Assembly (NCBI GenBank): GCA_022264855.1
Contig: JABYQU010000006.1
Location: forward strand, 124,001-188,000
Source: Lenzites betulinus
Taxonomy: Eukaryota; Basidiomycota; Agaricomycetes; Polyporales; Polyporaceae
DNA: 64,000 nucleotides
Reading direction: 5' to 3'
Part shown: one piece after another, positions 1,458-46,149 of the stretch
Layout of the letters: each line of letters opens with the position of its first letter
Numbering within the stretch: position 1 is the first letter of the stretch
Translations under genes and position numbers: made by a program
Notes under the pieces: generated by a model
What the model saw: the letters and a program-made list of their open reading frames with translations, nothing else
Database searches by the model: none
Told to the model about the DNA's origin: nothing

Positions 1458-2599
1458 CCATCAACATCCGAGGAGCTTCTCTGCAGACTTTCTCATGCGC
1501 CACGCCCCGGCCCACTTAACGCGCAATGTACAAGCCCAGTATTTCTCAAGGTCGTCCTTCGTGGCAAAATGTGCCGCACTGCCGTTGAGTCGATAGCCCG
1601 GGAGCGCATTCTTTGCACGTTATGCTCCTTGCTGGCTGCTGCCGTGCACGGTACAAGTCACCGCTTCATTGCTGGCAGTAGATGCGTTACCTTCTCACCC
1701 CCTCCCTCGAACGTACTGACCTTTCGCACAGACAGTTATTCGACTGTTGCTTGCATTCGCGGCCTCTGATAACTGAGCGACAGGACAGCAGTAAAGGGTA
1801 GCGGAGAAGTGCCAGTGTGCAACAACTGGAACGCTCGCAGCCATTTGCGATCGCCCGGGTTCGAATTCCAATGACGCAATCTATCTCTGTCAGCTACGTT
1901 GTGTTCCAACAAAGGTTAACATGTCGGATACTGTCCGAGAGACTATTGATATTACTAACCTTGGCAAAATCGTACACTTCATGCAGTAGATATCAAACCC
2001 AGTATCGCAGATTGTAATCTTCGTGGTGTGGCAAGCATGGCGTGTCGAACAGGCGATACACAGACTAAACTTGAAGAGTACTTACATTGGGCTAAGGGGC
2101 GCCTTGGGCTGCGCCGAACCTATGGAACGCCGCGTAGAAGACGCACCTTTCGTGTGCATGAGCCTGTAGTACGTGGAGGTGAGTACAAACCAGAGGGACC
2201 GAAGATGCCTATGTGGGTGACGATAGTGGTGAAAGGAACCTAACCGGTATATAGAGGAACCTCGGTGAGTTGGCAACTCTGAGTCGGGAATTTGCCACTG
2301 GCCTGCAGGCGCTATACTGCTTGAGTACATTTGGTGTAATGGGAGTAACTCACCGTTATATGGAGAGAGTTGTAAAGGCTTACGAAGTATATGTGCTATG
2401 GCTTTGGTGGTGGCGGTTTTGAGAAAGGAGCGACAAGTCAGCGCCGGTAGCGCGCGAAGTGGCTACACTGGCACGGTCACCTGATTCCGAATCCAGGTGG
2501 GCTCGGCATATCACAACCGTTGATCGTGTACTACTCACTACTCACGGCAACGGTAGTAGGCCAGTGGGAAATATCGCAGGTGAGATTGTGGCAGAAATA
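1458..2599. other. non-coding stretch between genes
   Basis: The open frames here are short, lack splice-supported extensions and show no recognisable motif. The left part may hold the promoter of the small gene ending at 1135. The right part is the 3' flank of the Plavaka gene. No repeat or RNA gene was identified. Confidence 0.5.
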
Positions 2600-23200: not shown

Positions 23201-26200
23201 CGCGCGCCGATAGCCGCGCACACCTCTCCAACCCCTGAACCCTCGCGCGAACACCCCTTTGCGAAAGCGCGCGATGCAATGTATGCGCCTCCGCGCGTGC
23301 GCAACTTCGGTGCGCCGCCCGTACCGCCGAAGGACAAGGACACCGCCTACAAGACCCAAGTTCCGGTCTACCGCGCGAGCTTCGCGGAGGACATCTTCGA
23401 GCGTTCCATGAAGGCCCCTACGCTCACCCTGACACCGGAGGAGCTCCTGTCCATTTCCCCTGAGGTTCGCGCGCGCTATCGCGAGGCAGTCACGCCGAAA
23501 CGCATCCCTACCGATTCGCGCGCGCCAGTCGACGCGCGCGGTAGCAACGAGGGACACGCGCCGGATGATACGCGCGTAATTGCGATGGCGTCTTGCACCA
23601 CCATCGAGGAGGTCTTGGAGGAATACACCGACGACCCTGCCCTATTCTCCTGTAGTGGCGACCCGCTGCTCCCGGAGGGCGTGGTGGTGCCTGACCCCTA
23701 CGAAGTCTACCTCAAGCGGCTCGAGCCAGGTAGCGACCCCGATGTCCTGACTGTCGCCAAGGAGTCTCACGCGTTACGCTCCATCGTCGGCTGGTGGACA
23801 ACAAGGAGTTTGTTGAGGCAATCATCGACCCGGGCTCTCAGATCGTAGCCATGTCCGAGGACGTCTGCCATGCTCTTCGGCTCGCCTACGACCCGACCAT
23901 CGTCCTTAACATGCAGTCCGCCAATGGAGACGTGGACCAGTCGCTGGCTTGGTGCGGAACGTGCCTTTCGCAGTGGCGGACATTGTCTTGTACCTGCAGG
24001 TGCATGTCATTCGTCATGCAGCCTACGACATCCTTCTGGGTCGGCCCTTCGACGTTTTGACCAAGAGTGTCGTCAAGAACTTCACTAACGAGGAGCAGAC
24101 CCTGACCATCGTGTGCCCGAACACGGGAACGATCGCGACCGTGCCCACCATCGCCGGCGCCGCTTTCGTGCCTCCGACGCCGGACATCCCCTTGGACAGC
24201 CAGCCCTTGCTTGAGGTTCCGGATGGCGAGATCGCATGCGTAATCACTGTAGAAGATGGCGTGCCGCGCATCACGTCGTATACCCCGACTCCTGACCCAT
24301 CTCTGCCTCTTTCCGCGCTCTATTTCTCTGCCTGCAACGCACTACCTATAGAGGTGCTATCTCTGCTCGACAAACTTGAAAAACCACATGGAGACGCACC
24401 GCGCGCAACCCCTTCTCCCTCTACGCCCCTAAAACCCCATGAAGACGCCTATAGTGCGCGCCCGCCTCATGTCTTTGTTCCGTCTATGTCCAGTTCCGCT
24501 CCTCCGGTCGCGTCTATGTCTCCTCTAGGTTCCTCTCAGTCTCAAGGGCTCCCTAGCCCCTCTACTCCCAAGGCGGGCGCAACCCCAGCCACCAATACCC
24601 CCCGCGCGACCCATGTTATTGCGCGCGGAAGACACCGCGCGCTCGACTCCCATCGCGCGCAGCCAACGCGCGCCCCGCCAAGGCCAAACTGGCCTACGCA
24701 TCGCGCGACCGCCCCACCACCGACATGGACTTACCGCGCGAAGCCAATACGGTCGGGCGTACTTACCGAGGCGTACATCTCGGCCAAAAAGAAGTACAAG
24801 CCGGTCGCGCGCAAGGTCCGCCCGGTCCTCGGCACGTCGCCTGAACACTTTCGCATCGAGCGCAACATCACAGGCGACCCTCTCGCGAGCATACCGCCGC
24901 TCAGTCCTCACCCACCCGCGTTTGTACCTACGGGCCGCTATACGCAGGAGCGCATGGAGGCGGTCGACAAGGCTCACGGCGACGGCTTCCTCTGGCCAGA
25001 GGAACAGAAGCTCCTTCATCACTTCTTTAGCCAGCAGAACGAGGCCTTCGCGTGGAACGACGACGAGCGCGGGTGCTTCAAACCCGAGTTCTTCCCTCCT
25101 GTGGAGTTTCCGGTGGTCCCGCACACGCCCTGGGTCGAGCGCAACATCCCCATTCCTCCAGGACTCTACAAGGAGGTCTGCGACATCATCAAGAAGAAGA
25201 TCACGGCCGGCGTGTACGAGCCATCCAACTCCTCCTATCGCTCGCGCTGGTTCTGCGTCCTGAAGAAGGACAAACACTCCCTCTGTATCGTCCACAGCCT
25301 GGAGCCGCTCAACAAAGTCACTATCCAGCATAGCGGGGTGCCTCCTACACCCGACCACCTCGCGGAGCAATTCGGAGGGCGCCCATGTGGTTCCATCTTC
25401 GATCTCTATGTCGGCTATGACGAACGGCTCATCTCAGTCACTTCGCGCGACCTCACCACCTTCCAGACTCCATTCGGCGCGCTGCGCCATCGTACCCTGC
25501 CTATGGGGTGGTGTAATTCGGTTCCTATCTTCCATGACGACGTCACGTACATTCTGCGCCTCGAAATCCCTCATCTCACCATTCCTTACATCGACGACGT
25601 ACCGGTCAAAGGTCCCGCGACAGACTACAAGCGCGCGGATGGCACCTTCGAGACCATTTCCGCAAACTCCGGTATCCGCCGCTTCGTGTGGGAACACTTC
25701 CAAGACGTCAATCGCGTTACGCAGCGCATGAAGTACGCGGGAGGCACTTTCTCAGGGACAAAGTCAATGGTCTGCCGGCGCGAGATTATGGTCGTCGGGC
25801 ACCGTTGTACACCCGAAGGACGTCTCCCCGAGGAGTCGCGCGTCGAGATCGTCAAGAATTGGGGCCCATGCAAAGACCTTTCCGAAGTGCGCGCGTTCCT
25901 GGGCACCATCGGGGTCGCGCGCATCTTCATCCGCAACTTCACGCAGCGCGCGCACGCGCTGGTCCACCTGACGCGCAAGGACGTACCCTTCGAGTTCGGC
26001 GAGCCGCAGCGCACGGCCCAGCGCGACCTGATCGACGCGCTACTGGCCTCTCCAGCTTTGCGCGCGCTCGACTACGAGTCCGAAGCGCCAGTGATCCTAG
26101 CGGTAGACACGTCCTACATCGCAGCGGGCTTCCATCTATGCCAGTGCGACGAGGAGGACCCGCGAAAGCGCTACTACGCGCGCTTTGGATCGATCACGCT

Positions 26201-26231
26201 TAACGAGCGCGAGGCACGCTTCTCCCAGCAG
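20258..26231 (+). mobile_element. Ty3/gypsy-type retroelement relic (gag, protease, RT), frameshifted and 3'-truncated
   Basis: Order along the plus strand: a short N-terminal frame from 20258 (MAPRSTGRKRGGKSK); gag-like sequence from 21433 (FDPANPRTLRRFFQDLEFLF) continuing in another frame from about 22060; a zinc-knuckle-like CHYCGDAGCQVRFCRH near 22660; a DUF4100-like stretch (AEDIFERSMKAPTLTLTPEE) near 23390; an aspartic protease core AIIDPGSQIVAMS near 23820; reverse transcriptase from 24800 with RSRWFCVLKKDKHSL, LPMGWCN and the catalytic YIDDV near 25590; and RNase H starting ILAVDTSYIAAGF. The reading frame changes at least three times before RT. RNase H is cut at REARFSQ where element A begins, and no integrase or LTR follows. 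The sequence is unusually rich in GCGCGC compared with its neighbours. DUF4100 assignment is from memory of the family. Confidence 0.8.
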
Positions 26232-26240
26232 CTGTTGTAG
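23949..26240 (+). pseudogene. retroelement pol fragment: protease end, RT, partial RNase H
   Basis: The longest intact frame of the relic (763 codons, including non-conserved linkers). It begins inside the protease-RT linker (HAAYDILLGRPFDVL) and runs through RT fingers and palm, including FQTPFGALRHRTLPMGWCN and YIDDVPVKGPATDYK, then the thumb/connection VRAFLGTIGVARIFIRNFTQ and the first third of RNase H. The last codons CTG TTG TAG belong to the end of element A, so the stop is borrowed. RT residues look intact although the element as a whole is dead. Confidence 0.75.
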
Positions 26241-26891
26241 TTCTGATGTATCAGGTACCGGTAAATGGCCTGCGGCCTATTGCATTATGTACCGTAGGGA
26301 CTCTGATGCATCAGGACCTCCCGGGAAAGTGCCCGGAAAGCCTCCGGGACCTGCCTAATTAGGCAGGTGCCCCGGGGGAGCGCTGTTATCTATTGTTTTT
26401 ACTGATCTACTGCTTATCTCTTGTAGATTACACTCTAATCTTATCAGCCCGGCGCTTTCCCGCGCCCCACTGGCCTCAGGAAGCGGGCGCTTCGGCTCTC
26501 GGCTCACAACACCCCAATTAGGCAACTGCCTCCTCCTCCCTCCATATCACCCTCCTCCCTCCGGCTCTCCTGGGCTCAATTCCTGTCAGATCACCCTCGC
26601 GCTAGCACCGTTCGATTTGAATTTTTAGGGACTACAATCGCGCGCAAACGCGTCCAGAATCCGGTGAGTAATGACTGTTTTACATTAGATACAAAATGGG
26701 CTAGTGAGACGACGCAAAACGCGCGATATCTCGCGCGTTTCGCGTCGCCCCCTCGCGCGTAAGGGCTCCCCGGAAAGCCACAGAACGTGGCTTTCCGGCG
26801 AGCCCTTCACGACGCGAGACGGACCGGGGGCGGTGGAGATACCGTCCACCCTTCTGGGGTAGGAGGGTAGCTCCACCTCCCTGGTCCATAT
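26232..26891 (+). repeat. element A left inverted arm
   Basis: Begins with the imperfect palindrome CTGATGTATCAG at 26243. It holds the hairpin CCTGCCTAATTAGGCAGG near 26353, the hairpin 26710-26747 and a GGAAAGCCACAGAACGTGGC palindrome near 26773. It ends near CTCCACCTCCCTGGTCCATA. Confidence 0.85.
26710..26747. repeat. subterminal hairpin around CGATATCTCG (element A, left)
   Basis: A stem of about 17 bp with one mismatch and a 4-base loop, CGACGCAAAACGCGCGA paired with TCGCGCGTTTCGCGTCG. Its mirror copy is at 28165-28202. Element B has a sequence-divergent hairpin with the same centre at 35032-35069. Confidence 0.8.
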
Positions 26892-27395
26892 AATCTCCAA
26901 CTCACCCCCCAGTGCTTCAGAACTCTTGTATAATACCTCATATACATTTTTGACAGTGTACAGTACATTTACATAGCACAGGACGCGCTTGAACAGGCTC
27001 AAAACCCGTCGCTCTGGGGCTCATATAAAACATGACCATTTTGCGAATAATCCAACAACGCGGACATGCTGCGCAACGATACATATATCGCCGGAAAGCT
27101 GCATGCAGCCGCTTTCCGACGGTATATGTATCGTCGCGAGGCGATCACTCCTCGCATCGCTACTATTATTTATATGCATTTTCACTGCTCCTTCCACACA
27201 CTTTTGGATATTTCAATAGCTTCTCCTACAGTTGGAATATGCATGCTATGTACATCTGATAGTACTGAGATACATCTATTGAATGCACAAATAATCACAG
27301 GAAACGACCTGAAACTCCTGTAGGTATACACTATTGTATCTACACAGTGTTGTACTGTTAGTACTGTACTACACAGCTGCAAAACTCGTCTTGCA

Positions 27396-27409
27396 GCGTC
27401 TTAAGACGC
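27396..27409. repeat. central perfect palindrome, element A
   Basis: GCGTCTTAAGACGC, perfectly self-complementary. It is preceded by CTACACAGTGTTGTAC and GTACTGTAC, a series that recurs in the centre of element B. Confidence 0.8.
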
Positions 27410-28020
27410 TTTGTGGCTGTGCTTTCCGACATAGATTAGCAGATGTGGTGTGCAATATAGGCTGCAATCACTTGAAACTTCGCACACATGTACACCATGG
27501 TTGTCGCTATTCAGATCTGAAATTATATTCATAATCGGACGGGTTCTCGGCGCTCTGCAGGAATTGCTTCATTTCATACTGATAGGGTGTTGGTGTGGCT
27601 ACAATGTTACAGATGCACATTTTAAATACATCAGGTAACGCTCTGGGATGCTGTGCATCCATATGTGAAGTCCACTTGCGAATTGAAGCTGTTTTACAGA
27701 ATATATGCTGGAATTACTGCTCAAAGGGGGGAGGAGGAAGGGTAGTTGACAGAAACACGTACAGCGGTCGTGTCGCGGCGCAAAGTATACCGTCGGAACG
27801 CTGCGTTTAACAGCTTTCCAGAGATATACTTTGCGTCTTGTAGCGTGCTCGACTGGCGGCGCTATGGGGGAGACAGTCACCCTGTGTCTGAGCCACAGAG
27901 CAGTTGCTGACAAGCAGCTTTCAGCGCGTTTTGCGCCCTATTAACGACTGATACATGGCCCTATATGTATAAGTAATATTATATAAAGGTCTTGAAGTAT
28001 ACAAACATGTTTGGGGGGAT

Positions 28021-28680
28021 GTATGGACTGGGGAGGTGGAGCTACCCTCCTACCCCAGAAGGGTGGACGGTATCTCCACCGCCCCCGGTCCGTCTCGCGT
28101 CGTGAAGGGCTCGCCGGAAAGCCACGTTCTGTGGCTTTCCGGGGAGCCCTTACGCGCGAGGGGGCGACGCGAAACGCGCGAGATATCGCGCGTTTTGCGT
28201 CGTCTCACTAGCCCATTTTGTATCTAATGTAAAACAGTCATTACTCACCGGATTCTGGACGCGTTTGCGCGCGATTGTAGTCCCTAAAAATTCAAATCGA
28301 ACGGTGCTAGCGCGAGGGTGATCTGACAGGAATTGAGCCCAGGAGAGCCGGAGGGAGGAGGGTGATATGGAGGGAGGAGGAGGCAGTTGCCTAATTGGGG
28401 TGTTGTGAGCCGAGAGCCGAAGCGCCCGCTTCCTGAGGCCAGTGGGGCGCGGGAAAGCGCCGGGCTGATAAGATTAGAGTGTAATCTACAAGAGATAAGC
28501 AGTAGATCAGTAAAAACAATAGATAACAGCGCTCCCCCGGGGCACCTGCCTAATTAGGCAGGTCCCGGAGGCTTTCCGGGCACTTTCCCGGGAGGTCCTG
28601 ATGCATCAGAGTCCCTACGGTACATAATGCAATAGGCCGCAGGCCATTTACCGGTACCTGATACATCAGAACTACCACAG
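28021..28680 (-). repeat. element A right inverted arm
   Basis: Reverse complement of the left arm with very few differences over 660 bp. Its outer end, CTACCACAG, overlaps the last three codons of the DUF6532 gene on the minus strand. Confidence 0.85.
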
Positions 28681-31583
28681 CTTGTGCTCCAGAGACATAG
28701 CGGCAACATCGAGAAAGCTCTTGCGTGGCGCTCCAGCTGGGTTTGAGCTCCCCGCAGGTATGCTGTATAGTGCGTTGTTAATGGAAATTGCGGTAGATAC
28801 TTTGGCGAGTAAACGCACCTGATCTGCCGCCAAAAACCGTGCATCAAGACGTGGTACTGTACTGGCCCGCCCATCCGAATACTTGATAGTTCCTGGATGT
28901 GGTCCTTGTAGACGCCCCAGTAGTCGTTAGCAGTGAAGTCGCGTGGCTGCTTGTAGCCATGTTTGCAGTCCTCAATAGCAGCGTGGAGCTGATGCACACG
29001 CGCAGTCTCAGTATGCAGTTGCTACATAGTACTGGGATCAAACATACCGCTGTGGCTACAAGCGCGAGCATGGCTGCGGGGATCTCCTTCTCATCGGGCT
29101 TCTCCGGTAACGAAGACTCAAAATGCTTCGAGAGCTCGAACCCGAAGCTGGATGGACGTTTGAAAAAGGCGACACGGAGTGTCTCGATGAACACTGGGGG
29201 GCTGTAAGGCTTCCCAGCCTTGATTGTCTTCGTCTATGTAGGGAAAACCAGTTGAGCAACAGAACCGTTAACGGAATCAGAACGCACCTCATAATCGAAA
29301 GGATATATGTAGCGGAATCCCTCCTGAAGCCAATCACCCTTTTCCTTATCACCGGAGGTGAGGCCAAGAGCGGTGGATGGTTGGCCATCAACCAGTTTAC
29401 GCACTTGACCGCGGAACGCTGGGATACGCTGGGAAGGCTGTATCGAAACAGAGGTCAAGCGTACCACAAGGCGACCATGCAGTGAATAGTACTCACAATC
29501 TTTGATAGATCTGCAGTGTACTCATCCTGCTTCTTCAAACGCTTGACAAGATCGTCGTAGCCAAACTCCGCCGCGGCCTTGAGCAGAGCACGATGAATTA
29601 TGTGCCCTGACTTCTGGGGGCCATCCGGGAACGCATTCTTCAGACTGACATTGACGAGCATTGTGTGGATTCCACGCTTGACAACTCGGCGGACTCGGCG
29701 GTGCTGTTCGTTGAGTTTGAGCTTACCCTTTCGTGGAAACACAATCTCAATCCCCGAGTCTTCGGATTCAGACTCTGTTGCCGACGCATCATCGACAGCG
29801 GAGTCTTCATCCTCGTCCTGCAGAATGAGCGGTTAGCAAGGCGTACAGCTACTAATAAGAGGACTCCGACACGTACCACCACAGCTTCAGACACCGCGCG
29901 CGGTGTCCGATAGGATCGCGCCTTGCGGATGTGCGCTGGTATCGAGTCGGTCTCGGAGGGCGCGTCGTCAGCAGTATTGGGTTCCCGGAATTGTGGAATC
30001 TTCGAAAGGGTCAGTCTGTGTGACGAAGTTTGCGAATAATGTATTGATAGCATACCTCATCCTTGCGCTTCCATTTTGTTTGCTTCCGAGCTCCCGACGT
30101 TGCTTGTTGTTCGGCGTTTGTAGCAGACTTGCCTAGCATCCGAGAGCAATGTGTGCCTACTGAGTGAATACGAACGAGGACTCGGATGTGATTATCAGAT
30201 AATTTTGGATAGCTCACCGGATACTGATGAGAGTGTTTTGACCTTGGAACGGTGAGTATCAACTCCTTGAGCCGTCTTCTTGACAGGTTTCTTTGGCGGC
30301 TGCAAGGCTTCTATCAATGGCTGAACTGTCATAACACAGCGCACTTACTGGGGCATCACTCTCACGGTCGCTGTCGTCTCGTGCAGGACGCTTCTTGTTC
30401 GAAATGAGATGATCAGCTCTAGCACGCCGAGTTTTTGTCTGCTTCGGCACATTTTCATGTGAGGATACAGAAGGAGAGCGGGAGGTAGGGGGAGGCCGTG
30501 AGCTATGGCGCGAATGAGACACAGAAGATGGCGACTTTGGCGCGGGCGCTTGTGACTTCGAGCGGGCACGATGTTTGGAACGGCTAGGCCGTAACGAATT
30601 GTCTTCTTCGACCCAGTATGCGGCCTGTAACAATCATAATCAAAATGAATTGAAGTGGGAGGCAGGAAAGGTATGTGCGTATACGCGCAAGGTGCAGTGC
30701 TGGGCGCCTGTCGCAAGACTGGGGCTTACCTCCTGAGCGAACGTTTTCGCAAGCGCCTGCGGGTTCTTCTCCATCGCTTTGAGTTCTTCATCGTCCTTAT
30801 CCGTGCTCTCCTCCTGCCTGTCTTCAGACATTGATCCACTATCCTGGTCCACTTCGTCGTCACTGGAGTGTTCCTCATCGAAGTCTTGCGTGATCTCGTC
30901 GAACGCCGATGGCTTCGTGTTTCTTGAAAGCACTACTGACTTGGTCTGGCGAGTATGCGTCTGCGGGCAGTATTGAGCAATATGTAGTAAGCGTATACAA
31001 CATATACCAATACATACAGTTCTATCTGGATTGTGAATACCTGCACTGGTGGGTTCATCTTCGGACTCAGAGGATGCGTTGGGATCGATGTGTGGTGGAC
31101 GGCTGCTGATGTGCGATTTTCCAGACTTGACAGATGGTTGAGCACCGTCTTTGTGGTCACCGCTCTTCTTCATCGGTAGGGCTAATCAGATAATTGAGTA
31201 CTTGTATACACAGAAAGCAGAAAGACATTAGGCCCTTACCCTGGCGTTGGTTCGAGCCAGCCGGGGCAAGTTCCGACACTCCAGCATCGAGCTTCTTCTT
31301 TTTGCGAGCTTGTCCGGGGACTAGAGCCTCCCACTCTGGAACTATTGTGAGTGTTAGGCATTAATATTGACGTGTTACCTGCTTACTCTTCTTGGCTTCT
31401 TCCTTAGTCTTGCGGGACGCTGTTGAAACATCAATGAGGGCAGTGGCTTAGAGTATACCGGGAAAGCTGCTTACGTCGACTGTCCAAATCACCAATGGAG
31501 GGCACTGGCGAAGCAGCTTGAAGGTCCAACTCGGCCGCTGACTCGGAGTCATCCGAGAGGACAATACGTTTACGGCGCCCCAT
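28672..31583 (-). CDS. DUF6532-domain protein, disordered N-terminus (copy 1)
   Basis: Start MGRRKRIVLSDDSESAAEL at 31583, then many short exons of basic/acidic disordered sequence (KTKEEAKK, QARKKKKLDAG, DEVDQDSGSMSEDRQEES, SRSKHRARSKSQAPAPKSP). The folded C-terminal part reads VVKRGIHTMLVNVSLKNAFP, KSGHIIHRALLKAAAEFGYD, EGFRYIYPFDYE, YSPPVFIETLRVAFFK, EIPAAMLALVATAV, HAAIEDCKHGYKQPRDFTAN and VYKDHIQELSSIR. This is the DUF6532 pattern (function unknown, expanded in Agaricomycetes). The last exon, 28762-28672, joins in phase 2 and ends SLEHKLW. Its final codons CTG TGG TAG are the terminal bases of element A, so the original C-terminus may have been replaced. It is divergent from Plavaka copy 3, with about 360 bp between the two starts. 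Confidence 0.7.
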
Positions 31584-31941
31584 ACGACGAGTGGAAATGG
31601 AAGAGAAAACACAGGCGGCGAGAATAAAAAGAAAGTATGCTAATAGTTACTAGTATGTCCGATAATCCGAGGCTGAATGAACGTGTAGGTGGGAGTGGGT
31701 GGTACTGGTCTGAAAGAGGGGAAGAGATGGGAGTTGCGTGGTACGTTGCCACGTTGGTCCAGGTCGTTTCGGAACACCTCACGATTTCTCCCAACAGATG
31801 CTCCCGCTTTTGGTCACAGCCTAGGGTCACGCTGCACCCGTCGTGACTTCTTGTTCTCTGATTGCGACCTCCACGCCGTATTCTAAGTACTTCCTGTTTC
31901 TTTCACGACACTCTGCAATATATCAAGCTGCTTGTTTTATC

Positions 31942-34900
31942 ATGTCGTCCTCCCGGAAACCTGCTAAACCCAAGTTCTGCCCCGGGTGTCGCAAGCACTT
32001 TACCATTACTGGCTACGACTCGCACCTCAACCAGACACGCCAACCAGCTTGTGTTGCGGTTCGTCTCCAGGGATATGCTAGCCCTTTTCAGCGCTTTGAG
32101 GTGCTGGATGAAACTTCGACTCCGCCGGTTTCCCCACCAACAAGCTCTCCGGAACGCAGTGCTGCCGGGTCATACCCCGATCACAATGACTACCACGAGC
32201 ATACTGGCGATGAGCCTGCTGTACCCTTCGAAGGCGACTACTATGGGACCTACTTGGATGACGACTTCGACGACTTCGACGAGTACGGCACTGATCCGGG
32301 CAAGGATGGTCTCGAGGAGCTCTTGGACGACTCGGACGAGGAACAACGTCAGCGCGACAGCTTTGAAGATGAAGATGACGACAACGACGACGCCGCTAAC
32401 TATGAGGCCGAGCATGGTTGGGAACCTCCGGCCCCACCCACTCATCCTCTCGCCGGCGAGGGCTCATCTGGGACTCATGCGGCTGTTGCAGATCCTCAAG
32501 AGCCAGCAGAGAACGACCTACCAGACCACCATATCCCTGACAGATCTCAGCAGTCTCGCGCTAATGAACATCTCCGCACAAAGACGTTCAAGGTACCCTT
32601 CCCAGGTATCCGCGCAGGAGCTGCAATCAACACGCCACGTGAACGCTCTGCGTACGAGAAGTACCAGAGTCACATCGATTCAGTCATAGCAAATCCTTAC
32701 GCCCCATTCGTCTCTCGAATGGACTGGGAAGTGGCTCGGTGGGCTAAGAGGCGGGGTCCAGGTTCCACAGCAGTCTCAGACCTCCTACAAATCGACGGAG
32801 TACGTACTACTCTAGTTCCACCTGTTGCAGTGCTAACTATCCTTGTAAATAAGCTCGTCTCACTCCTAGGGCTGTCATATAAGAACTCGAGGGAGTTAAA
32901 CAGCATTGTGGATGAGCAGCTCACATCCGGACGCCCGCGATTTGTGCGGCGTGAGATAGTGGTCGGTGGCGAGGTTTTCGAGATATTCTACCGGGACGTG
33001 ATACAATGCATCCGCGTGTTGTATGGGGACCCCGAGTTTGCCGGGATTCTAGTCTTCACCCCCGAGAAACATTACGCTGACGCCGAGCATACAACACGGG
33101 TTTACTTTGACATTCATACTGGCAAATGGTGGTGGGAAACTCAGGTGAGTTGTCGATCTCAAGCATGCAAGTCTGCCGTGTTCACAACATTTCACAGAGG
33201 ATGTTTGAGAGGCGCATGCCCGGCGCAACCATCATTCCAGTAATCATCTCATCCGATAAAACACAGCTCACTACGTTCGGGTCGAAGACGGCATATCCAG
33301 TCTACATGACGATCGGAAATCTCCCGAAGGACGTTCGACGGAAGCCCTCGCGCCGCGGCCAAATCCTTCTCGCATACCTGCCGTCTTCGAACCTCAAGCA
33401 TATCCCCAACAAGGCTGCCCGCCGGCGCACGCTAGCAAATCTCTTTCACGCTTGCATGGCTCACGTGCTTGCACCGCTGCAGCAGGCAGGTCTTGAGGGA
33501 ATCGACATCGTAAGCGGCGATGGGATCACTCGACGAGGGCATCCCATCCTAGCAGTCTACATCGGCGACTATCCTGAGCAGCTTCTGGTCACCTGTTGCA
33601 AGAATGGGACCTGCCCGAAGTGCGATATCACCCGCGGGGACGTCGGCAACTCCACAGACACCCAACGACCCCTCCGCGACCTCGACAATGTGTTGCATGC
33701 CCTTGACAGCTTCGATGAGGGCCCCACTGCCTTCTCACGCGCATGCAGAGAAGCGGGGATCAAACCGGTCGTTAATCCTTTCTGGAAGGACCTTCCGTAT
33801 GTCAATATCTTCCGTTTCATCACCCCCGACATTCTCCACCAGCTTTATCAGGGGCTAGTCAAGCATCTTCTCTCCTGGCTGAAGTCCGCCTATGGTGCTG
33901 AAGAACTTGATGCACGCTGCCGCCGTCTACCCCCCAACCATCACATCCGACTCTTCTTGCGTGGTATCACGACTCTCCAGAAAGTCACAGGCAAGGAGCA
34001 TAGCGACATGTGTCGCTTCCTTTTGGGGCTTATCATTGGCCTTCCGCTGCCGGGAGGCTTTTCCCCGGTCCGCCTTCTTCGCGCAGTTCGCGGGCTTCTT
34101 GACTTCATATATCTTGCGCAGTACCCCGCTCACACCTCCGACACCCTTTCCCTCCTTCAGGATGCTCTCAAACGCTTCCACGACAACAAATCAATCTTTG
34201 TCGAGCTCGAAATTCGTACTCATTTCAAGCTTCCAAAGCTTCATTCCCTCGATCACTACATCGAGTCTATCAAGCTTTTCGGGACCACTGACAATTACGA
34301 TACACAGTACACTGAGCGTCTGCATATCGACTTCGCGAAGGATGCTTACCGCGCAACAAACCACAAGGACGAGTTTCCCCAGATGACGACATGGCTTGAG
34401 CGCCGTGAGAAGATAGCACGCCATGAAGCATTCATCAACTGGCGTCTTCGCTGTAATGCCCCCGAGCGACGAAGGGCCATTTCTCGCGCTTCCGAGCACC
34501 CTTCGGCCAGTACGCCACCGTTTGTTGCTTCGCTGACATCAAGCCCATCGGCACCGCCGGTATGTCAGCCCCTGTTGTAGTTCTGATGTATCAGGAACCG
34601 TTTAGGACTCCGCACCGCTTTACATCAGGAACAGGAAGTGTTCCTGATGTATCACGGGCGGCCGGGAGCGCCAGCGCTGCCCTCCGGGACCTGCCTAATA
34701 TGGTAGGCAGGCCCGGGGGACAGCGCTGGCGCCCCCGGGGGCCTCTAATCTCTTATCTCTCAATAGATTATGTCTTATCTCATCTCCCTGGGGCTTTCCC
34801 GCGCGCGCCTGTGCCTCCCTCGCAGCCACATCCCGATTAGGCAGGTGCACTCTTGTCCTCCCTCCCTTGCCTGCCTGCTTCGCCTCGTTCTCGCTCAGTT

Positions 34901-37900
34901 CCTGGCCGATTCGCCCCAAAACTAGCGCGTCTTACTCGGGCGATCTCAGGCTACAATCGAGCGCAAACGCAATGATAATTGGGTAAGTACTGATCGTGCT
35001 ACAGGAGATACAGTGAAAGTGCAGAAGAGGGCGACAAAGAACGGGCGATATCTCGTCCGTTCTTTGTCGCCTCGGCGCGCAAAGTACTTTCCCATGACGG
35101 GGTAAGCAAGCGCGTTAGAACGAGCCGTCATGCGCGCGAATCGGCCGACGGACGGTGGAGCTGCGCTCCGCCCACCCCGGGGGGAGTGCAGCTCCTCCTC
35201 CTGTGCTTGTATTTGATTCGTTTTTGCTTGCACTGGCTTTATTCGTTCACTCATACACTCTACTCCACAGGTAAAACGTCCTCTGAACAAACTACACCCC
35301 ACAGACACGTCGAGGAGGGTGGGTAGTAGTCCCACTACTACCCACCTTCCTCGACGCATAGCGCAGCCGTCTCTGCGCGTATCGCCGCGGAAAATGTACC
35401 GCCAGAAAGCGGCGGAACGCAGCTTTCTTTCGGTACCTTTTGCGCGGCGACGCGACCACGTAGCGCGTCGCTGTTGATATGTGCTCCTCCTGCCTCCCAG
35501 CTGCATCCCCTCCCCTTCCACCTCTTCACAGGAGCTGTGATATGCTGACATCATGTGTATAAACATCTAATGTAGTGTATACATCTATTAAATGATACAT
35601 TACATGCATCTGAACTGCACAAACAACAAAACTGAGCAAAACTGAGCAAAACTGTGAGTTTTGCACACTACTTTTGCTGCTACATAGCTAGTTACAAGTC
35701 CAATATATTTATACATCATCCACATCGATAGACATCGTTTATAGCTTCCAGACAAGCCCAAGAACATAAAAATCGGCCAAGAACTCGGATTGCTATGCTA
35801 CACAGTGTTCTACAGAGATGTCCAGTAATGTACAGTACATCCAAATTTGCAGAAGTTGCTCGAGACCGTCTTAAGACGGTGGGCGGCTACCTGCATCTGT
35901 GCACTGATAACAAAATATCTCCGTCAGTTCCCATCCGTTTCCCTTGCAATTTCGTTTACCGGTAGCGGTCCCACAACGTATTACTCGTGCCAGCTTTTGT
36001 GACAATCGGTGGGGCGGATCGTGCGCAGCAAGGATGTATATTATGACTATAGATAAGCAGATTGAACACCCAAACGGGCGCCGATTGTCTTGTACTTTGG
36101 TGTACACATAGCGATGGCCTATAAACGTATTTGGAAGAAGACAGGGTGTGATTTGAAGCGTTTTACATGAATCTATTGATAAAACATCTGGTTACAATGT
36201 ATAGAACACAGGATAGCCTCTTGCGAAGGTTTCTGCGGTCGAATCGCCGCACAAAAGGCACCGTTGGAACGCTGTGCTGCACTGCGTTCTGACGGTGCCT
36301 TCTGCGCCGCGATACGCGCAGAACTGGCAGTGCTATGCGTCGAGGAAGGTGGGTAGTAGTCCCACTACTTCCCACCCTCCTCGACGAGGTTCTAGCCCTT
36401 GTTTTGATTGTAAAACGTCTTTCCTGTAGCATAGAATGTATTAGTAACTAAATGAAACGAATGCGAGCCAAATTGAACGAGATATGAGCATAAGAGGTGG
36501 AGCTGCACTCCCCCCGGGGTGGGCGGAGCGCAGCTCCACCGTCCGTCGGCCGATTCGCGCGCATGACGGCTCGTTCGAACCCGCTGGACTCCCTCGTCAT
36601 GGGAAAGCTATTCGCGCGCCGAGGCGACAAGGAACGGACGAGATATCGCCCGTTCTTTGTTGCCTCTTGTGCACTTTCACTGTATCTCCTGTAGCAGAGT
36701 CAGTACTTACCTAATTCCCGTCCAGTTTGCGCACGATTGTAGCGTAGGTACATCCGAGTAACATGCGCTAGTTTTGAAGCGAATCGACCGAGAACCGAGC
36801 GAGGGAGAGGCGGAGGAAGCAGCAGGGGGGTGTGGCTGAGGGCAAACTTGCCTAATTGGGATGTGGCTGAGAGGGAGGCACAGGCGCGCGCGGGAAAGTC
36901 CCGGGGAGATGAGATAAGGCCATTATCTGTGTTAGATAAGAGATTAGAGGCCCCCGGGGGTGCCAGCACTGTCCCCCGGGCCTGCCTACCATATTAGGCA
37001 GGTCCCGGAGGGCAGCGCTGGCGCTCCCGGCCGCCCGTGATACATCAGGAACACTTCCTGTTCCTGATGTAAAGCAGCGCGGAGTCCTAAACGGTTCCTG
37101 ATACATCAGGAGTACATCAGCTGGTGGGTATGTTATAAGCTATATCATGTAACCGCGGCTGATGAGCTCGAGCTGATACTTCCTGCTGTTTGAACATAGC
37201 AGGATGATATGATTCCTTTACGAGAACGTGATCAATCTCATGCCGCACGGTCTACTGTCTGGACGCGCATCAAAATCACCAAATGGCCAAGCGTCAAGGC
37301 CCTATCTTTCGAGGCAGCGGCTGAGCGCTACGGTGCGCTCTATCTCACTGACGCACTGGCGCGATTCGTTGTCCAGTACCGCAATCCCGATCTATCCGCC
37401 GCTGAAGTCGAGCAAGAATCTCTTGCAGTCAGCTTTCGCTTTCGCAAGATACCAGCCTTTCACAAGCTCAAGTTCACCCTGGACGACGCACAAGACCTTG
37501 GCATCATGGACAGCATACAAGACGTCGCCCACGCACGTCCGGAGCGGAAGGACAAGCATGGAAGGATCGTACCTGGCAGGTTTGACTCTGTGCTTGTCAA
37601 TGATGGTACCGGTGGCGCGTCGGGCATTCAAGGTCAGTACGGTCCACTCTTCCTATACAAAACTAACTCTTATACACCAGGATATCATGTTGCACAACTA
37701 CGTCTTGTCTTCAAGCTCTCCCAGGCTGCATGCCGAGACCTCTTCCCTGATGTTCTTCCACCCGGTCACCTGGCGTACATCGAGCGCTTCTCCAGCTTCA
37801 CCGCTCCGGACCCTATTCACGGCCTCTATAAGGTTACTCGAAGTCGCGATCCAGCTGGTGCGCGCCTTGCAAGCGTGGTTGAAGTCCGGAACATCCGACG

Positions 37901-38218: not shown

Positions 38219-39211
38219 CCAGGGGGGTTTTTCCTGATGCGCCGGGGATTGCTGCTTCTTGGGCAGCGAGAGTTTGGGCAGATGTTACTCGCACTAATCC
38301 CGGACCTTTCAAGTATCAACTCACCAGCAGAATCGAAAAGATTGTACGTATCCATTCACCCCATTGACGACTTTGCTACCCCATTGACTTGAGCATCATC
38401 CCGTAGATCACCAGTAGAAACTCGCATGCACGTGGCGCCCTGCGCGATCGCGTACGCCCGCTCATCGTTCAGACGTACGGCCTGTTCGAAGACCTTACGG
38501 ACCGCGCCAAGCAGCATAACATGTCCACGTATACCTATCTCCTCGATCGTGATGGTCGGCACGCCCCCGAGCCTCGTTTCTACTTCAATGTAAGTTGTAC
38601 TTATACGCGTTTCGTTCACCGTAGTGTCTCTGATGATTCTTCAATTCAGGATGTCGCCGCTCGCCTCGGGTTCGCGGGGAACAAGATCATCAAAACGGTG
38701 CTCAAAGAACATTGGTTTGCCGGCCCAGAAGCTCCCGGCGTAAAGTATGCATCGCAGTTCTCGCCGCTGCGAGACGTCACGCTCGCACTTGTGTTCACCT
38801 CAGTATGTAATCGCTCACACTTCCCTGCGCACGCCCACACTAACATACACCGTGCTACAGATCGAGTACTGTCTGGATCAGTGGGCCACGGGCCATCTCG
38901 ACAGAGAACTGGCGTTCTCGAACAATGTATACCGGGTAAAGTATCAGCAGCACCTCCGGTGCATCCAAGAATGGGGCAGCCTCGACCCCGTCGCCTCGTG
39001 CGCTATCCGCCAGCGTATGCATGACCGCGCTAGGTAAGTGCTGTTATGATCTCATTACTTCTCAGGTATCACAAGCTCATGTCCTCTCGATCTCAGACGT
39101 TCTTCAGGGGCCCCGCCGGAGGTTCTGCCCCCAACAGGCCTCTCCGATGCCGCACGCGAACGCCTCCGTTTGGATATGGCGGCACAGGTCGCAGAGGAGT
39201 CCGATGCCTAA
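38219..39211 (+). CDS. DUF6532-domain protein (copy 2), 5' end unresolved
   Basis: A first recognisable exon ends at 38343 (DAPGIAASWAARVWADVTRT, then YQLTSRIEKI). It is followed by exons 38407-38589, 38650-38802, 38861-39033 and 39097-39211, all in frame. Motifs in order: ARGALRDRVRPLIVQTYGLF, APEPRFYFN, GNKIIKTVLKEHWFAGPEAP, YASQFSPLRDVTLALVFTS, IEYCLDQWATG and YRVKYQQHLRCI, a good DUF6532 match. The tail is LSDAARERLRLDMAAQVAEE and stops at TAA 39209-39211. A possible acceptor GGCCAG lies at 38213-38218, but no start codon or N-terminal disordered exons were found before the Plavaka stop at 38033. The copy may therefore be 5'-truncated by the transposon, or its early exons may be too short to see. 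Confidence 0.62.
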
Positions 39212-41030: not shown

Positions 41031-42803
41031 CGTGCGGTATGCGGATGGGGTGAACTAGTGAGATGACGGGAGAAGGCAGGTTTCGCTCTCACTCGAGGCT
41101 TGCGCACGGAGTCCAGGCTGCGGAACGTACAGGGGTGCACAGGAATGCAGCATTTATACCGCGCCCCTCAAGCAGGCCCGGACATTTGCGCGCGTCCTGG
41201 ATCGAGGCTCTGCACCGCCGCAGTAGGTGCAGTGCGCACCCGAAGCTGGAGGACGCAACTTACGACTGCCATCAGCGTCGGATGTGTGCCCCACATAGGC
41301 TCCTGTCATATGTGGTCTGCGACTAGTCTGCCGTCGTGCGCTCGTCACCGTTGCCGCTGTCGACGCTGGGGCTACGACTGATTGGGGCGCCTGTATTCGC
41401 ATGGGTGCGACGGGAGAGCAACTGCGATCATGAACGTCTCTCGGGTCCCTTCCAATTCAAGTTGTCGGCTTGGATTGAAGAGCTACAGCTGCCCAAACTC
41501 ACTTCTTCTGCGAGGCGACTGGCAGCGATCGAGCTTGGCTGAGGTAAGACTGGAACTTACGAGCATGCTCCGTACGATGCAGGCTGTCGTGCACCAAACA
41601 CATCCATATTCAAGCGATGCGCAAGGCAAGCAGCCAGGCAAACAATAGGCGGCGCCACGGGAACGGACCTTTACGTCCTCCCGCCCTCCGCCTCCACTGT
41701 GCCTGCACGCTCATGCTAATGTTGTGTAGAGCGCAATCTTCGTGACCACAATCCGTGATGGACATGAACGCGCAGCTCCAGACCAGCCCGGACTTGGTGA
41801 CATGACTACCCGCGTAGAGGCGGGGAGGGGAGGCACATTGTATCTTTCCGGCACGGAGGTTTGGGTGAGTTCGTGCGATAGATGGTCAATTTCAACGCGT
41901 GTGAGTCATGTGGATCCGTTCGTGAACCAGCTGCCACTTACTGGGTGAAGTAGGGCCCTAAGGTGTCGTAAGATACAATTTGGCGAATACTGGTCGGAGA
42001 GGGCATTCAGTTTGAGGCCATACTGCTACTCGCGCGACTCCGAGAGTGTCCTGTCCATGAGGACATACCTGAGGATGGGAACCCGAAATTGCGCATATCC
42101 AACATGCTCACAGAACATTCAAGTGGGGGACCAAGCTGAAGAGCCGCGCGTTGAGAGCCTACTGTCATTGTTTGAACTGTCAATGTGACGTCTGAGCTGT
42201 TGACGGCGTCACTAGGGGTCTTCTCGGGTGGATGTTATGTTCCCCATTTGTGATGTTCATGAAGTACAGAAGAACAGTTGCAAGGCTGGGATTACGAGGA
42301 CGGAACGTGGTCGAGGGACAGTACGACGAACGGCCACCGCGACCAAGAGGATTCGGCTAATGCCGGCGCTCGCAAGCGCCCGTGAAAGCTAAGCGTTGTG
42401 AACTGGACCCAACCTGCCGCTCGTCTGTTCAGCTTTTCTTTGTGCCCTTCGATAGCTGGAGTGCGCCTTCGAGTGGGCCACTCAGACTGTCCGATATTAA
42501 CGAGGACGAGAGGGGCGGTGAGGGTAGCACTGGGCCACTATCTCGGAAGACCGTCGATCACATCCGAGATTTAGATCTCAAAACAAAGGCGAATTGGCCA
42601 AGTCTTAGTTTGAATGAAACGCTTTTCTCTTCAAGGTCTACCACCTCGAAGTCAAACTACAGTCACAGTTGCCGTGGCGCTCATGTAAGCATTGCTTCTC
42701 TAGCACATTCAAGTTCTCAATGCGAGTTTTCGTCGGACGCTGAATGCCGGCAGCCCCCTATCTAGCTCAAGCCCGCTCAGTATCAGTGGCTAGCAATATC
42801 GCA
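41031..42803. other. intergenic and promoter region of the BTB array
   Basis: No gene recognised; the frames present lack splice support. 42541-42803 shares blocks with the region upstream of BTB gene 2 (CGTCGATCACATCCGAGAT, and CAGCCCCCTATCTAGCT close to the ATG) and so is probably the duplicated promoter. Confidence 0.45.
42559..42580 (+). promoter_or_regulatory. conserved block upstream of BTB gene 1
   Basis: CGTCGATCACATCCGAGAT followed by TTAGATCTCA. The same block stands upstream of BTB gene 2, and a weaker form (CGGGATCTCAGATCTCA) upstream of gene 3 near 45870. It may be a shared regulatory site or only a trace of the tandem duplication. Confidence 0.4.
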
Positions 42804-43911
42804 ATGTCCATGTCAATAGCCAATAGCGCCCCCGCAGCGAAGCGGAAGAGAGGAGATGAGGACGTCAAGACCACCCCCGGCGGATTCGAATTCGAGCGCG
42901 ATGCGGAGTTTTGGCTTGAAGACGGAAACCTGGTCCTCGTCGCCCGAGATACGGGTTTCCGTGTCTACCGGGGGCTCCTCGCCTCTCAGTCAGAGGTCTT
43001 CGGGGGCATGTTCGAAGCGGCAAGCCCGAGCACTGGCGATAGCTTTGACGGCTGTCCTGTTGTACACCTCTCCGGCGATGCTCCGGAAGACTTGCGGCAT
43101 CTCCTACGCGTGATTTTACCAAAGACTCAGAGGAGGTAAGACGATCTTTCGGACGATGTCAAAATCGCATTCACTCATCGGTATATGCGCAAGGTTCTCT
43201 GCACAGCCGAAGAAGGACATAACATTCGGCCAACTCTCAGCCATCGCACGCCTCGCCCACAAATACAACATCGCCGACCTCGAGACACAAGCTTCTGCCA
43301 TGCTCCAATCGGCCTACGTGCCAAAGTACAGCGAGCTCGACCGCCTACAGGCACTCCGCAAGCTTGGCGAGACCGCTCCCGCCGACGGCGGCGACAACTA
43401 CGTTTTCGACGACATCTGCGCGATCGGTGCCGTCAACTGCGCCCGCCTCCTCGATCAACCGTCCGTCTTGCCTTACGCCATGTACATCTGCTGTGGCCTC
43501 GGAGGCCGCGTCCTTGACGGGTGGACGCGCGAGGATGGCACGGTCGAGCGGCTCAGCACGGAAGACACGAAACGCATCATGGACGCCTGCGAGCTGCTGG
43601 CGCAACACGCGCAGCGTGCCTTCTTCACAATCTTCAAACTCGCCCCATGCAAAGGCGCGTGCGATACGCCCGAAGATTGCACTGATGCACTCGCACAGAT
43701 TTTGACGGCGGCGGGGCGTAGCATTGGCACCCGGCGCACGCACGACACACTGCACTCGTGGGAGGCTGAGATCAAGGCCATGAGCTCTCGCACCGACCTC
43801 TGCCAAGTTTGCGAGGATGTGATGGTGATACATAGCGAACAGGAGAGGCAAAAAGCATGGAAACTTTTACCGCATTTCTTTGGCATAGATATGCTTTTGG
43901 GGCTCAGTTAA
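42804..43911 (+). CDS. BTB/POZ-domain protein, tandem copy 1 (349 aa)
   Basis: Exons 42804-43135 and 43194-43911 join in phase 2 (AG|G). The start MSMSIANS is chosen by comparison with copy 2. A basic KRKRGDEDV patch near the N-terminus resembles a nuclear signal. The BTB core follows: EFWLEDGNLVLVARDTGFRV, YRGLLASQSEVFGGMFE, DGCPVVHLS and DLRHLLRVILP, then ITFGQLSAIARLAHKYNIAD. The C-terminal part has conserved cysteine pairs (CGLGGRVLDGW, CKGACDTPEDC, CQVCEDV) and ends with a HFFGIDML motif. BTB proteins dimerise and often serve as cullin-3 adaptors or transcription factors; neither role can be shown here. Copy 2 has an exon 2 of exactly equal length (718 nt). Confidence 0.85.
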
Positions 43912-44461
43912 TGAGAGCTTTGTTACCCATGTTGTGGCCAATATGTACTCAGGATTGTATACTTACATGCGGTCCAAATTGCCACTCACTCACCCACTCG
44001 GTACTTCAAGAGCGCCGGTCTGCGGTGGCTCATCCTTCCCTCAAGTTAATTTTTTGCAATTCGACGTGCCTAAATAGACGACGGCGACAGTTCAATGCGG
44101 CGGATCGGAGCTGGTCAGGTAGCACCTAATTTGCTCTCGAGGCTACGGTAGCGGAACACCGTCGATCACATCCGAGATTCCAGATCTCAGAAATTAATGT
44201 CAAGTCTAACTAAAATCTGCAGAGGACTCGCGCGCGTTTGGTGGAGCTCTACTCTCTTAAACGCCTACCATCCCGAAGTTGAGCTCAATCTTTAGCTGCG
44301 CGGGCCCTTCATGTGAGCATTGTTTCTGTATCGTGCAGACGCTCCTAGTGCAACAGCGAGCTATCCACAGCTCACAGTCTTCCCACCCAGACGTCGGACA
44401 CCGAGTGTCAGCCCCCTATCTAGCTTAAGCATACTGAGTACCCGTGCCAAGAAATATCGCC
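43912..44461. other. spacer and promoter of BTB copy 2
   Basis: Carries the duplicated block (CGTCGATCACATCCGAGAT at 44159-44177) and CAGCCCCCTATCTAGCT just before the ATG. No other feature. Confidence 0.5.
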
Positions 44462-45558
44462 ATGTCAATTGCCAACAGCACCCGCGCAGCGAAGCGGAAG
44501 AGAGGAGACGAGGACGTCAGGACCGTCCCCGGCAGATATCAATTCCAGCGCGATACGGAGTTTTGGCTCGAAGACGGCAACCTCGTCCTCATTGCCCACA
44601 CCACCGGCTTCCGCGTGTATCGGGGGCTCCTCGCCTCCCAATCGGAGGTCTTCGGGGGTATGTTCGAATCCGCAAGCCCGAGCACTGGCGATAGCTTCGA
44701 TGGTTGCCCCGTGGTCCATCTCTCCGAGTCTCCCGAAGACCTGCGGCATCTTTTGCGCGTGATTTTGCCTGCATCCCAGCGGAGGTAAGGAGTCTACTCG
44801 GAACTGTTGCAGGTCGGCTGCTCAACGGCGTATGCGCCAGGTTCTCTGCGGAAGCGAAGGACATGTCGTTCAGCCAGCTATCAGCTGTCGCCCGCCTCGC
44901 ACACAAGTACAACATCGCCGACCTCGAGACCCAAGCCTCCACCGTGCTCCAATCGGCCTACGTGCAAACATTTGCCGACCTCGAGGCCCTCCAGGCCTTC
45001 CGCGAACTCGAGGACCCCGGCCCCGCCGACGGCAACTTCCCCACCTTCGACGACGTCTGCGCGATTGGCGCCATCAACTACGCCCGCCTGCTCGACCAGC
45101 CTGGTGTCCTGCCCTACGCCATGTACACATGCTGCGGCCTGGGGGCCGACATTCTCGACGGGTGGACACGCGAGGACGGCACGCGCGAGCACCTCAGCAC
45201 AGAAGACCTCAAGCGCGTCGTGAACGGCCGCGAAAAGCTGGCCATGACGGCGCGGCATGCGTTCCTCCGCATCTTTGACCCCGCTAGCGGCGAGTCACCG
45301 TGCTCCTGCGAGGCGGCGCTGGTGGAGCTCATGATGGGCGCGGGGCTCTCTGAAGGACCCGCTACGCACGACGTGCTCTCCTCATGGGAGCCTGACATCC
45401 GCCGATTATGCTTTGACTTCGATATTTGCCAATTATGCGAGGACGACCTGTTGGCGCGCGACGACATGGAGAGGCGACAGATATGGGCACGGCTGCCGGA
45501 GTTCTTCGGCCTAGACGTTCCTGGGTGGAGTGTTTTAAACCAACCTTACGATAATTGA
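44462..45558 (+). CDS. BTB/POZ-domain protein, tandem copy 2 (346 aa)
   Basis: Exons 44462-44784 and 44841-45558 join in phase 2 at the same residue as in copy 1. Start MSIANSTRAAKRKRGDEDV. The BTB core is nearly the same as copy 1 (FWLEDGNLVLIAHTTGFRVY, GLLASQSEVFGGMFESASPS, DGCPVVHLSESPEDLRHLLR). The C-terminal region (FSQLSAVARLAHKYNIADLE, AIGAINYARLLDQPGVLPYA, HLSTEDLKRV, CQLCEDDLL, LPEFFGLDVPGW) is full length. Copies 1 and 2 are clearly the closest pair, pointing to a recent tandem duplication that included the promoter. Confidence 0.86.
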
Positions 45559-46149
45559 GATCCACAGCCGAGGCCTGCCCAAACCGATGCTGCTACTATG
45601 CATATGTTATATGAGCCTCTTACTTTGTATTTCTTGACCTGCTTCTCAGATTAATGTATCAAGTCAGCGTAATGGCCAGCGCGCGGTCTCCTGCCTCAGT
45701 ACCTGCTACTTCTGTCGCCGATTAGTGTGCGGAGCTGTCGACGACTTACTTGCAGTGTCTTTGTAGGCCTCCAAGGTGACAATGGATCCTACTTGGACGA
45801 ATTGAGCAAGCAGAAGGCCAAGCTACCGGCGGCTCAACTCGGATCACGGCTTTAGACCTCCGTTCGTATCCGGGATCTCAGATCTCAAATCTAGCGGTAC
45901 CTTCCAAAACTGGGTAAGCCAGTTTCATTGTCTTTCGCAATACACCACGCGCCGAGCTCGCACTCTGTAGAGACCCAGTTGGCATACGTGAACGTCGTCC
46001 ATCCGTACACACTAGCTTCACCAGTAAGGACTGGTTTTCGTTCCGTAACGAGGGTTAAGTAATTATCTAATGTTCGCCTACCAGCGTCTTGAACCGTTGG
46101 GTCATTCACATTCACACAGGCTACGTGTGCGCTTTCGACGAATACCACT
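45559..46149. other. spacer and promoter of BTB copy 3
   Basis: No coding exon. A weak relative of the duplicated upstream block (GGGATCTCAGATCTCAAATC) lies at 45871-45890. Confidence 0.4.

Follow-up and report, generated by a model that had tools for sequence, protein, structure and literature searches.

Kyakuja transposons are described as leaving 7-bp target-site duplications and as ending in 5'-CA..TG-3', and as the sole TET+ lineage reported in Polyporales; Zisupton and one Dileera family have 8-bp duplications, and two Laccaria Kyakuja families are said to be without inverted repeats (Kojima 2025, PMC12730594). In the accessible portions of that paper, the word "non-autonomous" appears once, concerning TET/JBP genes. 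The KDZ elements of Cryptococcus are given, in the accessible portion of their description, 4-8-bp duplications (PMC12810828), so that duplication length alone cannot settle the KDZ branch. Here we describe two non-coding foldback elements, A and B, from Lenzites betulinus (Polyporales). Both lie in a stretch of 64,000 nucleotides of contig JABYQU010000006.1 (positions 124,001 to 188,000, assembly GCA_022264855.1), hereafter the window, and they were compared with their copies throughout the 37.4-Mb genome, in which C-numbers denote contigs and L-numbers extracted loci.

A and B are well supported as non-autonomous elements of Kyakuja type, a placement suggested by their duplication length and ends, and they probably move with the enzyme of far larger Kyakuja elements of the same genome, to which ends and duplications also point. 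Like the Kyakuja TET+ elements of Agaricomycotina, as presented in the accessible portions of PMC12730594, they have 7-bp duplications and 5'-CA..TG-3' termini, their partners carry KDZ domains and a dioxygenase that may be TET/JBP-like, and Polyporales are among the reported orders. Unlike those elements, A and B are gene-less, about 2.5 kb long and equipped with long foldback arms, and unlike the two Laccaria families, all elements studied here have inverted repeats. KDZ1-KDZ3 of Cryptococcus neoformans (9.2-11 kb) also have a KDZ transposase and long inverted repeats, of 139-241 bp, but their duplications are 4-8 bp, they have CxC1 instead of CxC2, and foldback passengers are unmentioned in the accessible part of the text (PMC12810828).

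Galileo (P superfamily) and Tm1 (Mutator/Foldback) resemble A and B in long structured inverted arms and non-coding copies; A and B differ from them in having KDZ relatives, discrete hairpins in fixed order instead of internally repetitive arms, and constant length. Miniature inverted-repeat transposable elements (MITEs) are small, up to several hundred bp. With MITEs and deletion-type passengers, A and B have in common that they are non-autonomous and have the termini of an autonomous partner, but they measure about 2.5 kb and not a few hundred bp, keep the length of their interiors, and comprise mutually diverged copies with fresh duplications, not the products of one burst. Literature searches, with subscription journals mostly outside their coverage, yielded no report of KDZ foldback passengers, of passengers of the TET-carrying KDZ group, or of the palindrome CGTCTTAAGACG presented below.

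Organization of elements A and B

The sequence-only reading of the window had proposed a dispersed family of non-coding, multi-hairpin foldback elements with shared boundaries, and numerous further copies in the genome bear this out. The boundaries it gave are indeed shared between copies, but each fell 6 bp short, the true ends being 26226-28686 and 34566-37126. Arms of about 660 bp had been suggested for A, in agreement with the 661 bp measured, while the 630 bp suggested for B was too short; arms of about 890 bp were found, about 83% complementary (a search with the left arm hits the right arm, C65:160237-161120, at 83%). Features of the two elements are listed below by window position, with the strand where one applies; E1 and E2 are large elements, and B1 and B2 are types of B ends, all introduced further on.

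26226-28686: element A, 2461 bp, a non-coding foldback transposon that begins with its left-type end; ends determined from copies and the C19 twin
26226-26297 (+): A left end module (CAGCAGCTGTTGTAG...), resembling E1/E2 ends at 91-94% over 66-67 bp
26230-26890 (+): A left arm, complementary to the right arm at 100% of its 661 bp
26710-26747: A hairpin around GATATC, from palindrome comparison, DNA fold and pairing analysis
26761-26807: A hairpin GGAAAGC..GCTTTCC, DNA fold z -8.6
27072-27138: A inner hairpin, from inverted-repeat search and DNA fold
27397-27408: A central palindrome CGTCTTAAGACG, 53.5 bp off midpoint
28022-28682 (-): A right arm, 661 bp, complementary to the left arm
28105-28151: right-arm mirror hairpin of A, from inverted-repeat search
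34559-34565: B target-site duplication, left copy GGTATGT, directly outside B
34566-37126: element B, 2561 bp, a non-coding foldback transposon that begins with its left-type end, GGTATGT on either side
34566-34657 (+): B left end module of B1 type (CAGCCCCTGTTGTAG...), mean identity 98.8% within B1 and 74.8% to B2
34662-34738: B hairpin with tip CCTGCCTAATATGGTAGGCAGG, DNA fold z -8.5
35030-35071: B hairpin around GATATC, DNA fold z -7.1
35308-35356: B hairpin CGTCGAGG..CCTCGACG, DNA fold z -10.1
35382-35450: B inner hairpin, DNA fold z -7.3
35867-35878: B central palindrome CGTCTTAAGACG, 26.5 bp off midpoint
36243-36313: B inner hairpin in the right arm, from hairpin comparison
36621-36666: B hairpin around GATATC in the right arm, from hairpin comparison
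37035-37126 (-): B right end module (CACCAGCTGATGTA...), from end comparison among B copies
37127-37133: B target-site duplication, right copy GGTATGT, directly outside B

Direct comparison upholds the claim that A and B have their internal palindromes in the same order: CTGATGTATCAG at the end, a CCTGCCTAAT hairpin with a G-run, a CGATATCTCG hairpin, inner hairpins, and CGTCTTAAGACG near the centre. A stem said to be matched on its other side in both elements pairs at 13 of 14 positions in each, with one mismatch apiece. DNA folding of seven hairpins in the window showed each to be more stable than all of its 200 shuffles (z -3.8 to -10.1). The absence of a gene or transposase inside the elements also held, since their longest frames are within the range of shuffled sequences; variable sites show no triplet rhythm, and an Rfam search of the elements gave zero matches.

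Copies, ends and target-site duplications

Aligning further copies, as had been recommended, allowed 39 copies with two ends to be assembled, 12 from family A, 21 from B and six from a third family, C. Comparison of the copies placed each end 6 bp further out, at CA...TG; the script used later for scanning duplications itself demanded CA. Among the 37 two-ended copies with one left and one right end, a perfect 7-bp target-site duplication is present in 31. L037 and L058 have perfect 8-bp duplications, L027 matches at 6 of 7 positions, and L050, L064 and the window copy of A have none. Window B is flanked by GGTATGT on both sides, and a twin of window A on contig C19, 99.8% identical, is flanked by GCGCGAC. 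The remaining two copies, L052 (C98:296803-299352) and L060 (C63:90935-93328), have two right-type ends and zero duplication, which suggests rearrangement after insertion.

Across all 34 duplications, a single mismatch occurs in 240 positions, whereas the divergence between B copies is about 20%. The divergence would thus mostly predate the present insertions, in lineages that apparently kept moving.

The ends had been thought to fit nothing known. Moved by 6 bp, they match the Kyakuja signature of CA..TG and 7 bp, as given in the accessible text of PMC12730594, and relatives bearing KDZ domains are present in the genome. CA ends, 7-bp duplications and inverted arms were found, in contrast to Helitrons, which leave no duplication, to elements with long terminal repeats, and to CACTA elements, which have CACTA ends and 3-bp duplications.

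Some copies and their surroundings show additional peculiarities. Nested in the A copy of locus L013 (C87), at 2530-3600, is an insertion of about 1.07 kb that carries 67-bp inverted repeats of its own, 97% identical. Contigs C50, C64, C65, C66, C76, C82 and C91 start or stop inside or near elements, and foldbacks seem to break the assembly.

Gene-carrying relatives and modular ends

A search for larger relatives with the same ends disclosed three Kyakuja-like families of 12.6-14.4 kb with KDZ and CxC2 transposase domains, pairing A with E1/E2, the B2 half of family B with E3, and a further family, D, with F. Likeness to the shorter families is confined to the terminal 66-92 bp. E1 (C87:1688-15875, duplication GAATCGG) and E2 (C87:20955-35024, duplication ACACTGC) belong to a 14-kb class and are 99-100% identical over long aligned blocks. 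The A termini (66-67 bp) recur at their ends at 91-94%, and their domains include CxC2 (E 3e-40) and KDZ (E 8.5e-29), accompanied by a dioxygenase gene. E3 (C22:87335-101694, duplication CACAAGA) has KDZ (E 1.3e-31) and a CxC2 profile match, and its terminal ~92 bp are 83-92% identical to B2 ends. F (C51:6984-19594), also with KDZ and CxC2 matches, has about 85 terminal bp in common with D at 80-92%. Family D, defined by coordinates only, comprises six two-ended copies of 2.10, 2.46, 2.49, 3.05, 3.85 and 19.7 kb. E1, E2 and E3 have 7-bp duplications, and the polarity of their left and right ends is the same as in the short families.

The E1 dioxygenase has an HxD motif and 1263 database relatives; the best 120 listed include a Trametes protein that its source calls a JBP1/TET oxygenase. 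Pfam gave no match for it or for the scanned relatives, and a search of solved structures likewise provided no name. The outer ~900 bp of E1 (L009, L010) consist of a G+C-rich repeat array inside both ends, open in several frames. Two further candidates for gene-carrying partners were rejected: a perfect A end at C98:82599-82686, which lacks a recognisable second end in the stretch read and was taken as a truncated end, and 185 bp of a B end at C17:365077, likewise taken as a fragment.

Ends were compared among 13 representative B copies, seven with B1 and six with B2 ends. Identity of the left termini is 98.8% within B1, 93.6% within B2, and 74.8% between B1 and B2. Interiors within B1 are as different as across the two types (84.6% versus 85.3% at positions 93-900, 74.2% versus 74.7% in the centre), and therefore they hardly track the ends; interiors within B2 are somewhat more alike (87.0% and 79.3%). 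Two end sets are mounted on similar B interiors, and the ends come as modules.

The central palindrome

The palindrome CGTCTTAAGACG occurs at 56 sites in the genome, in comparison to 1 for the reversed control, which is also a palindrome and has the same composition. Among 50 listed of the 56 sites, 25 are in A or B copies, four in E1-E3 (two of them in E3), one in F and six in D; six are near single ends, for which the span was assumed, and eight are outside known elements. These eight (C24:183603, C40:101529, C40:107443, C52:278490, C76:966287, C87:54100, C87:130886 and C87:138753) may mark further families.

In B, the palindrome is 24-28 bp off the midpoint in all 20 copies, in one with a changed base. 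In A, it is 43-69 bp off in 10 of 11 copies, the 12-mer being exact in five of these and represented by 1-2 variant sites in the other five, and L027 has it 46 bp off on the opposite side. The offsets in large elements are 89 bp in E1, 31 in E2, 17 and 64 in E3, and 161 in F, which is 12.6 kb long; in the two D copies measured it is 123-125 bp, or 5% of the length. Family C is without CGTCTTAAGACG and has TGTGAGACGCGTCTCACA instead, which in five of its six copies is located 69-80 bp from the centre.

Two readings of this site were weighed. The first, for which we see the chances as evenly balanced, is that the palindrome is no more than a promoter or regulator site, inherited by the passengers from the large elements, and that its midpoint position is due to chance or common ancestry. 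In E1 and at C51 the palindrome is located directly 3' of the dioxygenase gene, before the next gene, and this adjacency is what makes an inherited regulator site possible. The large elements have a common gene order, so that their midpoints are not independent cases, and the D palindrome is 5% off centre. Against it, the palindrome is kept in gene-less A and B copies (20 of 20 in B) within a centre diverged by about 25%.

In the second, more tentative reading, the interior itself would be selected: an old and long-lived DNA architecture of about 2.5 kb (paired arms, hairpins, fixed spacing and the palindrome), remounted on changing Kyakuja ends and folded about its centre, with the palindrome, present near the middle of elements of 2.4 to 14.4 kb, as a general cis site (a pairing, replication or regulatory centre) of Kyakuja transposition. 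We know of no cut-and-paste transposon requiring a central site. Midpoint symmetry predicted the second end of F at about C51:7306, while it was found at 6984, 322 bp away. This missed prediction, the off-centre palindrome of D and the short D copy slightly lowered our confidence in this second reading.

Paired changes in arms and hairpins

Pairing was evaluated against a null of 100 runs, in each of which the window copy was evolved over the tree, every site at its own rate, with scaling to the observed divergence. The copies used were 12 of 20 for B, with the reference, near-duplicates and L052 excluded, and 8 of 11 for A. Local hairpins of B are 91.4% paired (null 77.8 ± 1.8), and the compensated share of changed pairs is 13.9% versus 3.9% (maximum 7.3). 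For long-arm pairs of B outside hairpins, the values are 87.7% (null 72.6 ± 1.2) and 24.5% versus 5.3% (maximum 8.6). Local hairpins of A are 78.0% paired (null 57.7 ± 2.4), with 15.4% versus 7.1% compensated (maximum 10.9), and long-arm pairs of A outside hairpins reach 88.0% (null 58.1 ± 1.1) and 54.0% versus 7.9% (maximum 11.1). Raw double-changed cells exceed the null in long arms (242 in B, maximum 141; 595 in A, maximum 221); in local hairpins they are not significant (B, 40 versus 24.6 ± 9.9; A, 52 versus 41.7 ± 11.0). Selection on structure, as proposed from the window alone, is thus only partly borne out: paired changes exceed an evolutionary null, but this excess is strongest in the long arms, where arm copying could produce it without selection, and raw double changes of the small hairpins are not significant.

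Mismatches in distinct pairs show no difference between G-T and A-C (44/46, 105/113, 57/44 and 95/106). Constraint at the RNA level is thereby without support, and pairing apparently takes place as DNA.

Paired changes could also arise unselected, by gene conversion or template switching between the foldback arms, with the small hairpins perfected by the same slippage; we rate this at somewhat below an even chance. The two arms of a copy resemble each other more closely than arms taken from different copies do in all 11 A copies and in 19 of 20 B copies, which points to arm-to-arm copying in these two families; the arms of L052 are 100% alike, and those of L057 98.5% alike over 650 bp. The peak of the compensated share in long arms outside hairpins (54% in A) and the non-significant double changes in local hairpins of both families agree with it. 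In C, however, the likeness of arms within a copy was observed in only two of six, and copying does not account for the low number of indels in B's unpaired centre. Arm copying may account for much of the paired change.

Length constancy and scarcity of indels

The sharpest sign of constraint, absent from the list of features drawn up from the window, is the scarcity of indels. Copies of A are 2406-2468 bp long and those of B 2548-2564 bp, with a standard deviation of 4.4 bp among 20 B copies of about 80% identity. The A copies L017, L019 and L021 are each 2457 bp and differ by about 262 substitutions and 0 indels per pair. In pairs with more than 60 substitutions, A and B show 61-311 substitutions per indel and C 45, while ten close pairs show 13 (185:14). 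The B tree has a length of 1.343, or about 3440 substitutions, and 43 distinct gap intervals, counted as events. Six close B pairs (98:11) differ from the rest of the tree (3340:32) at Fisher p 4e-8; the recent indels of close pairs may include assembly errors. Even the unpaired centre of B, at about 25% divergence, has 2.1 indels versus 185 substitutions per pair. No clearly shortened two-ended copy of A, B or C was present in the end-pattern lists, whose patterns miss diverged ends.

It is unlikely, in our assessment, that this scarcity is an effect of alignment or of assembly errors in the close-pair baseline, without any constraint. Only 14 indels, from 10 close pairs, make up the baseline, and several contigs break off within foldbacks, so indels of close pairs may be assembly errors. 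Raw lengths, however, are free of alignment (standard deviation 4.4 bp in 20 B copies; exactly 2457 bp in the three A copies), and assembly indels would inflate the counts of diverged pairs as well. The length data are best read as a cis role of the interior; for the paired changes, arm copying is the main rival.

Assignment and proposed mechanism

We consider it likely that A and B are non-autonomous elements of the Kyakuja branch of KDZ transposons, moved in trans and having a structurally constrained interior. Several observations weigh against this. Window A has the flanks CTTCTCC and CTCCAGA and no duplication, and L050, L064 and F at C51 are likewise without one. Truncated one-ended copies exist (L022, L023, L048 and L049, in addition to those interrupted where a contig stops), and one D copy measures only 2.10 kb, so some copies can lose their interior. 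The absence of inverted repeats reported for the Laccaria Kyakuja also sets them apart from the elements here. The genome search with end patterns found no gene-carrying partner for C or for the B1 end type of the window, and the genome has 77 KDZ matches, many potential sources of the acting enzyme.

A mover from another superfamily with 7-8-bp duplications, such as hAT7, Zisupton, or a P-type enzyme as in the foldback-like Galileo, seems improbable. In published descriptions, hAT7 has 7-bp and Zisupton 8-bp duplications, and L037 and L058 have 8 bp; however, KDZ and CxC2 are the domains present in the elements whose ends match, and the nine E1/E2 frames scanned, a subset of the exons, gave no P-type or hAT match. 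Preservation of the structure as RNA (a hairpin transcript, a source of small RNAs or a viroid-like RNA) is less probable still: stable hairpins and two long arms would suit it, but G-T does not prevail over A-C, although selection on RNA should favour G-U on the transcribed strand, Rfam gave zero matches, and ends and duplications are of DNA-transposon type.

For elements of Kyakuja type moved in trans, a mechanism can be proposed. The KDZ/CxC2 transposase of the resident 12.6-14.4-kb Kyakuja-like elements would recognise the terminal ~66-92 bp, with two distinct ends, CAGC..CTGTTG and CAC.A.CTG. The element would then be excised and inserted elsewhere, leaving a 7-bp duplication (8-bp in two copies). 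The interior would act in cis through its fixed length, its hairpins and the palindrome common to the large elements, most probably by providing binding sites at set distances or by folding so that both ends meet. Likeness of the arms may be maintained largely by one arm being copied from the other within an element.

Neighbouring sequences in the window

Element B is inserted into a Plavaka transposase gene (31825-34577, +; PF18759, E 1.5e-89 in its second part). Element A interrupts a frame with a weak match to retrotransposon RNase H (23910-26237, +), and the right flank, from 28687 onward, is not the continuation of this frame. Because of this, and of the absence of a duplication, the site looks as if it was rearranged after insertion of A. 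Between A and B is a probable intron-containing gene (28690-31600, -), whose longest frame, 30640-31182, is without a Pfam match. A DUF6532 domain (PF20149) is located at 38407-39021 (+), and three direct repeats of ~700-900 bp with 68-76% identity at 42731-46935.

Implications for KDZ transposition

Passengers of cut-and-paste transposons are thought to require the ends alone, with interiors free to shrink and decay. Unlike such passengers, A and B hold the length of their interiors and pairing at the DNA level while the sequence diverges. Their copies are freshly inserted yet mutually old, and the ends are modular, one of the modules matching a resident transposase family. Should the interior have a cis function, recognition of the ends alone would not suffice for KDZ transposition. 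The families are natural test substrates for the transposase group that carries TET-type dioxygenases.

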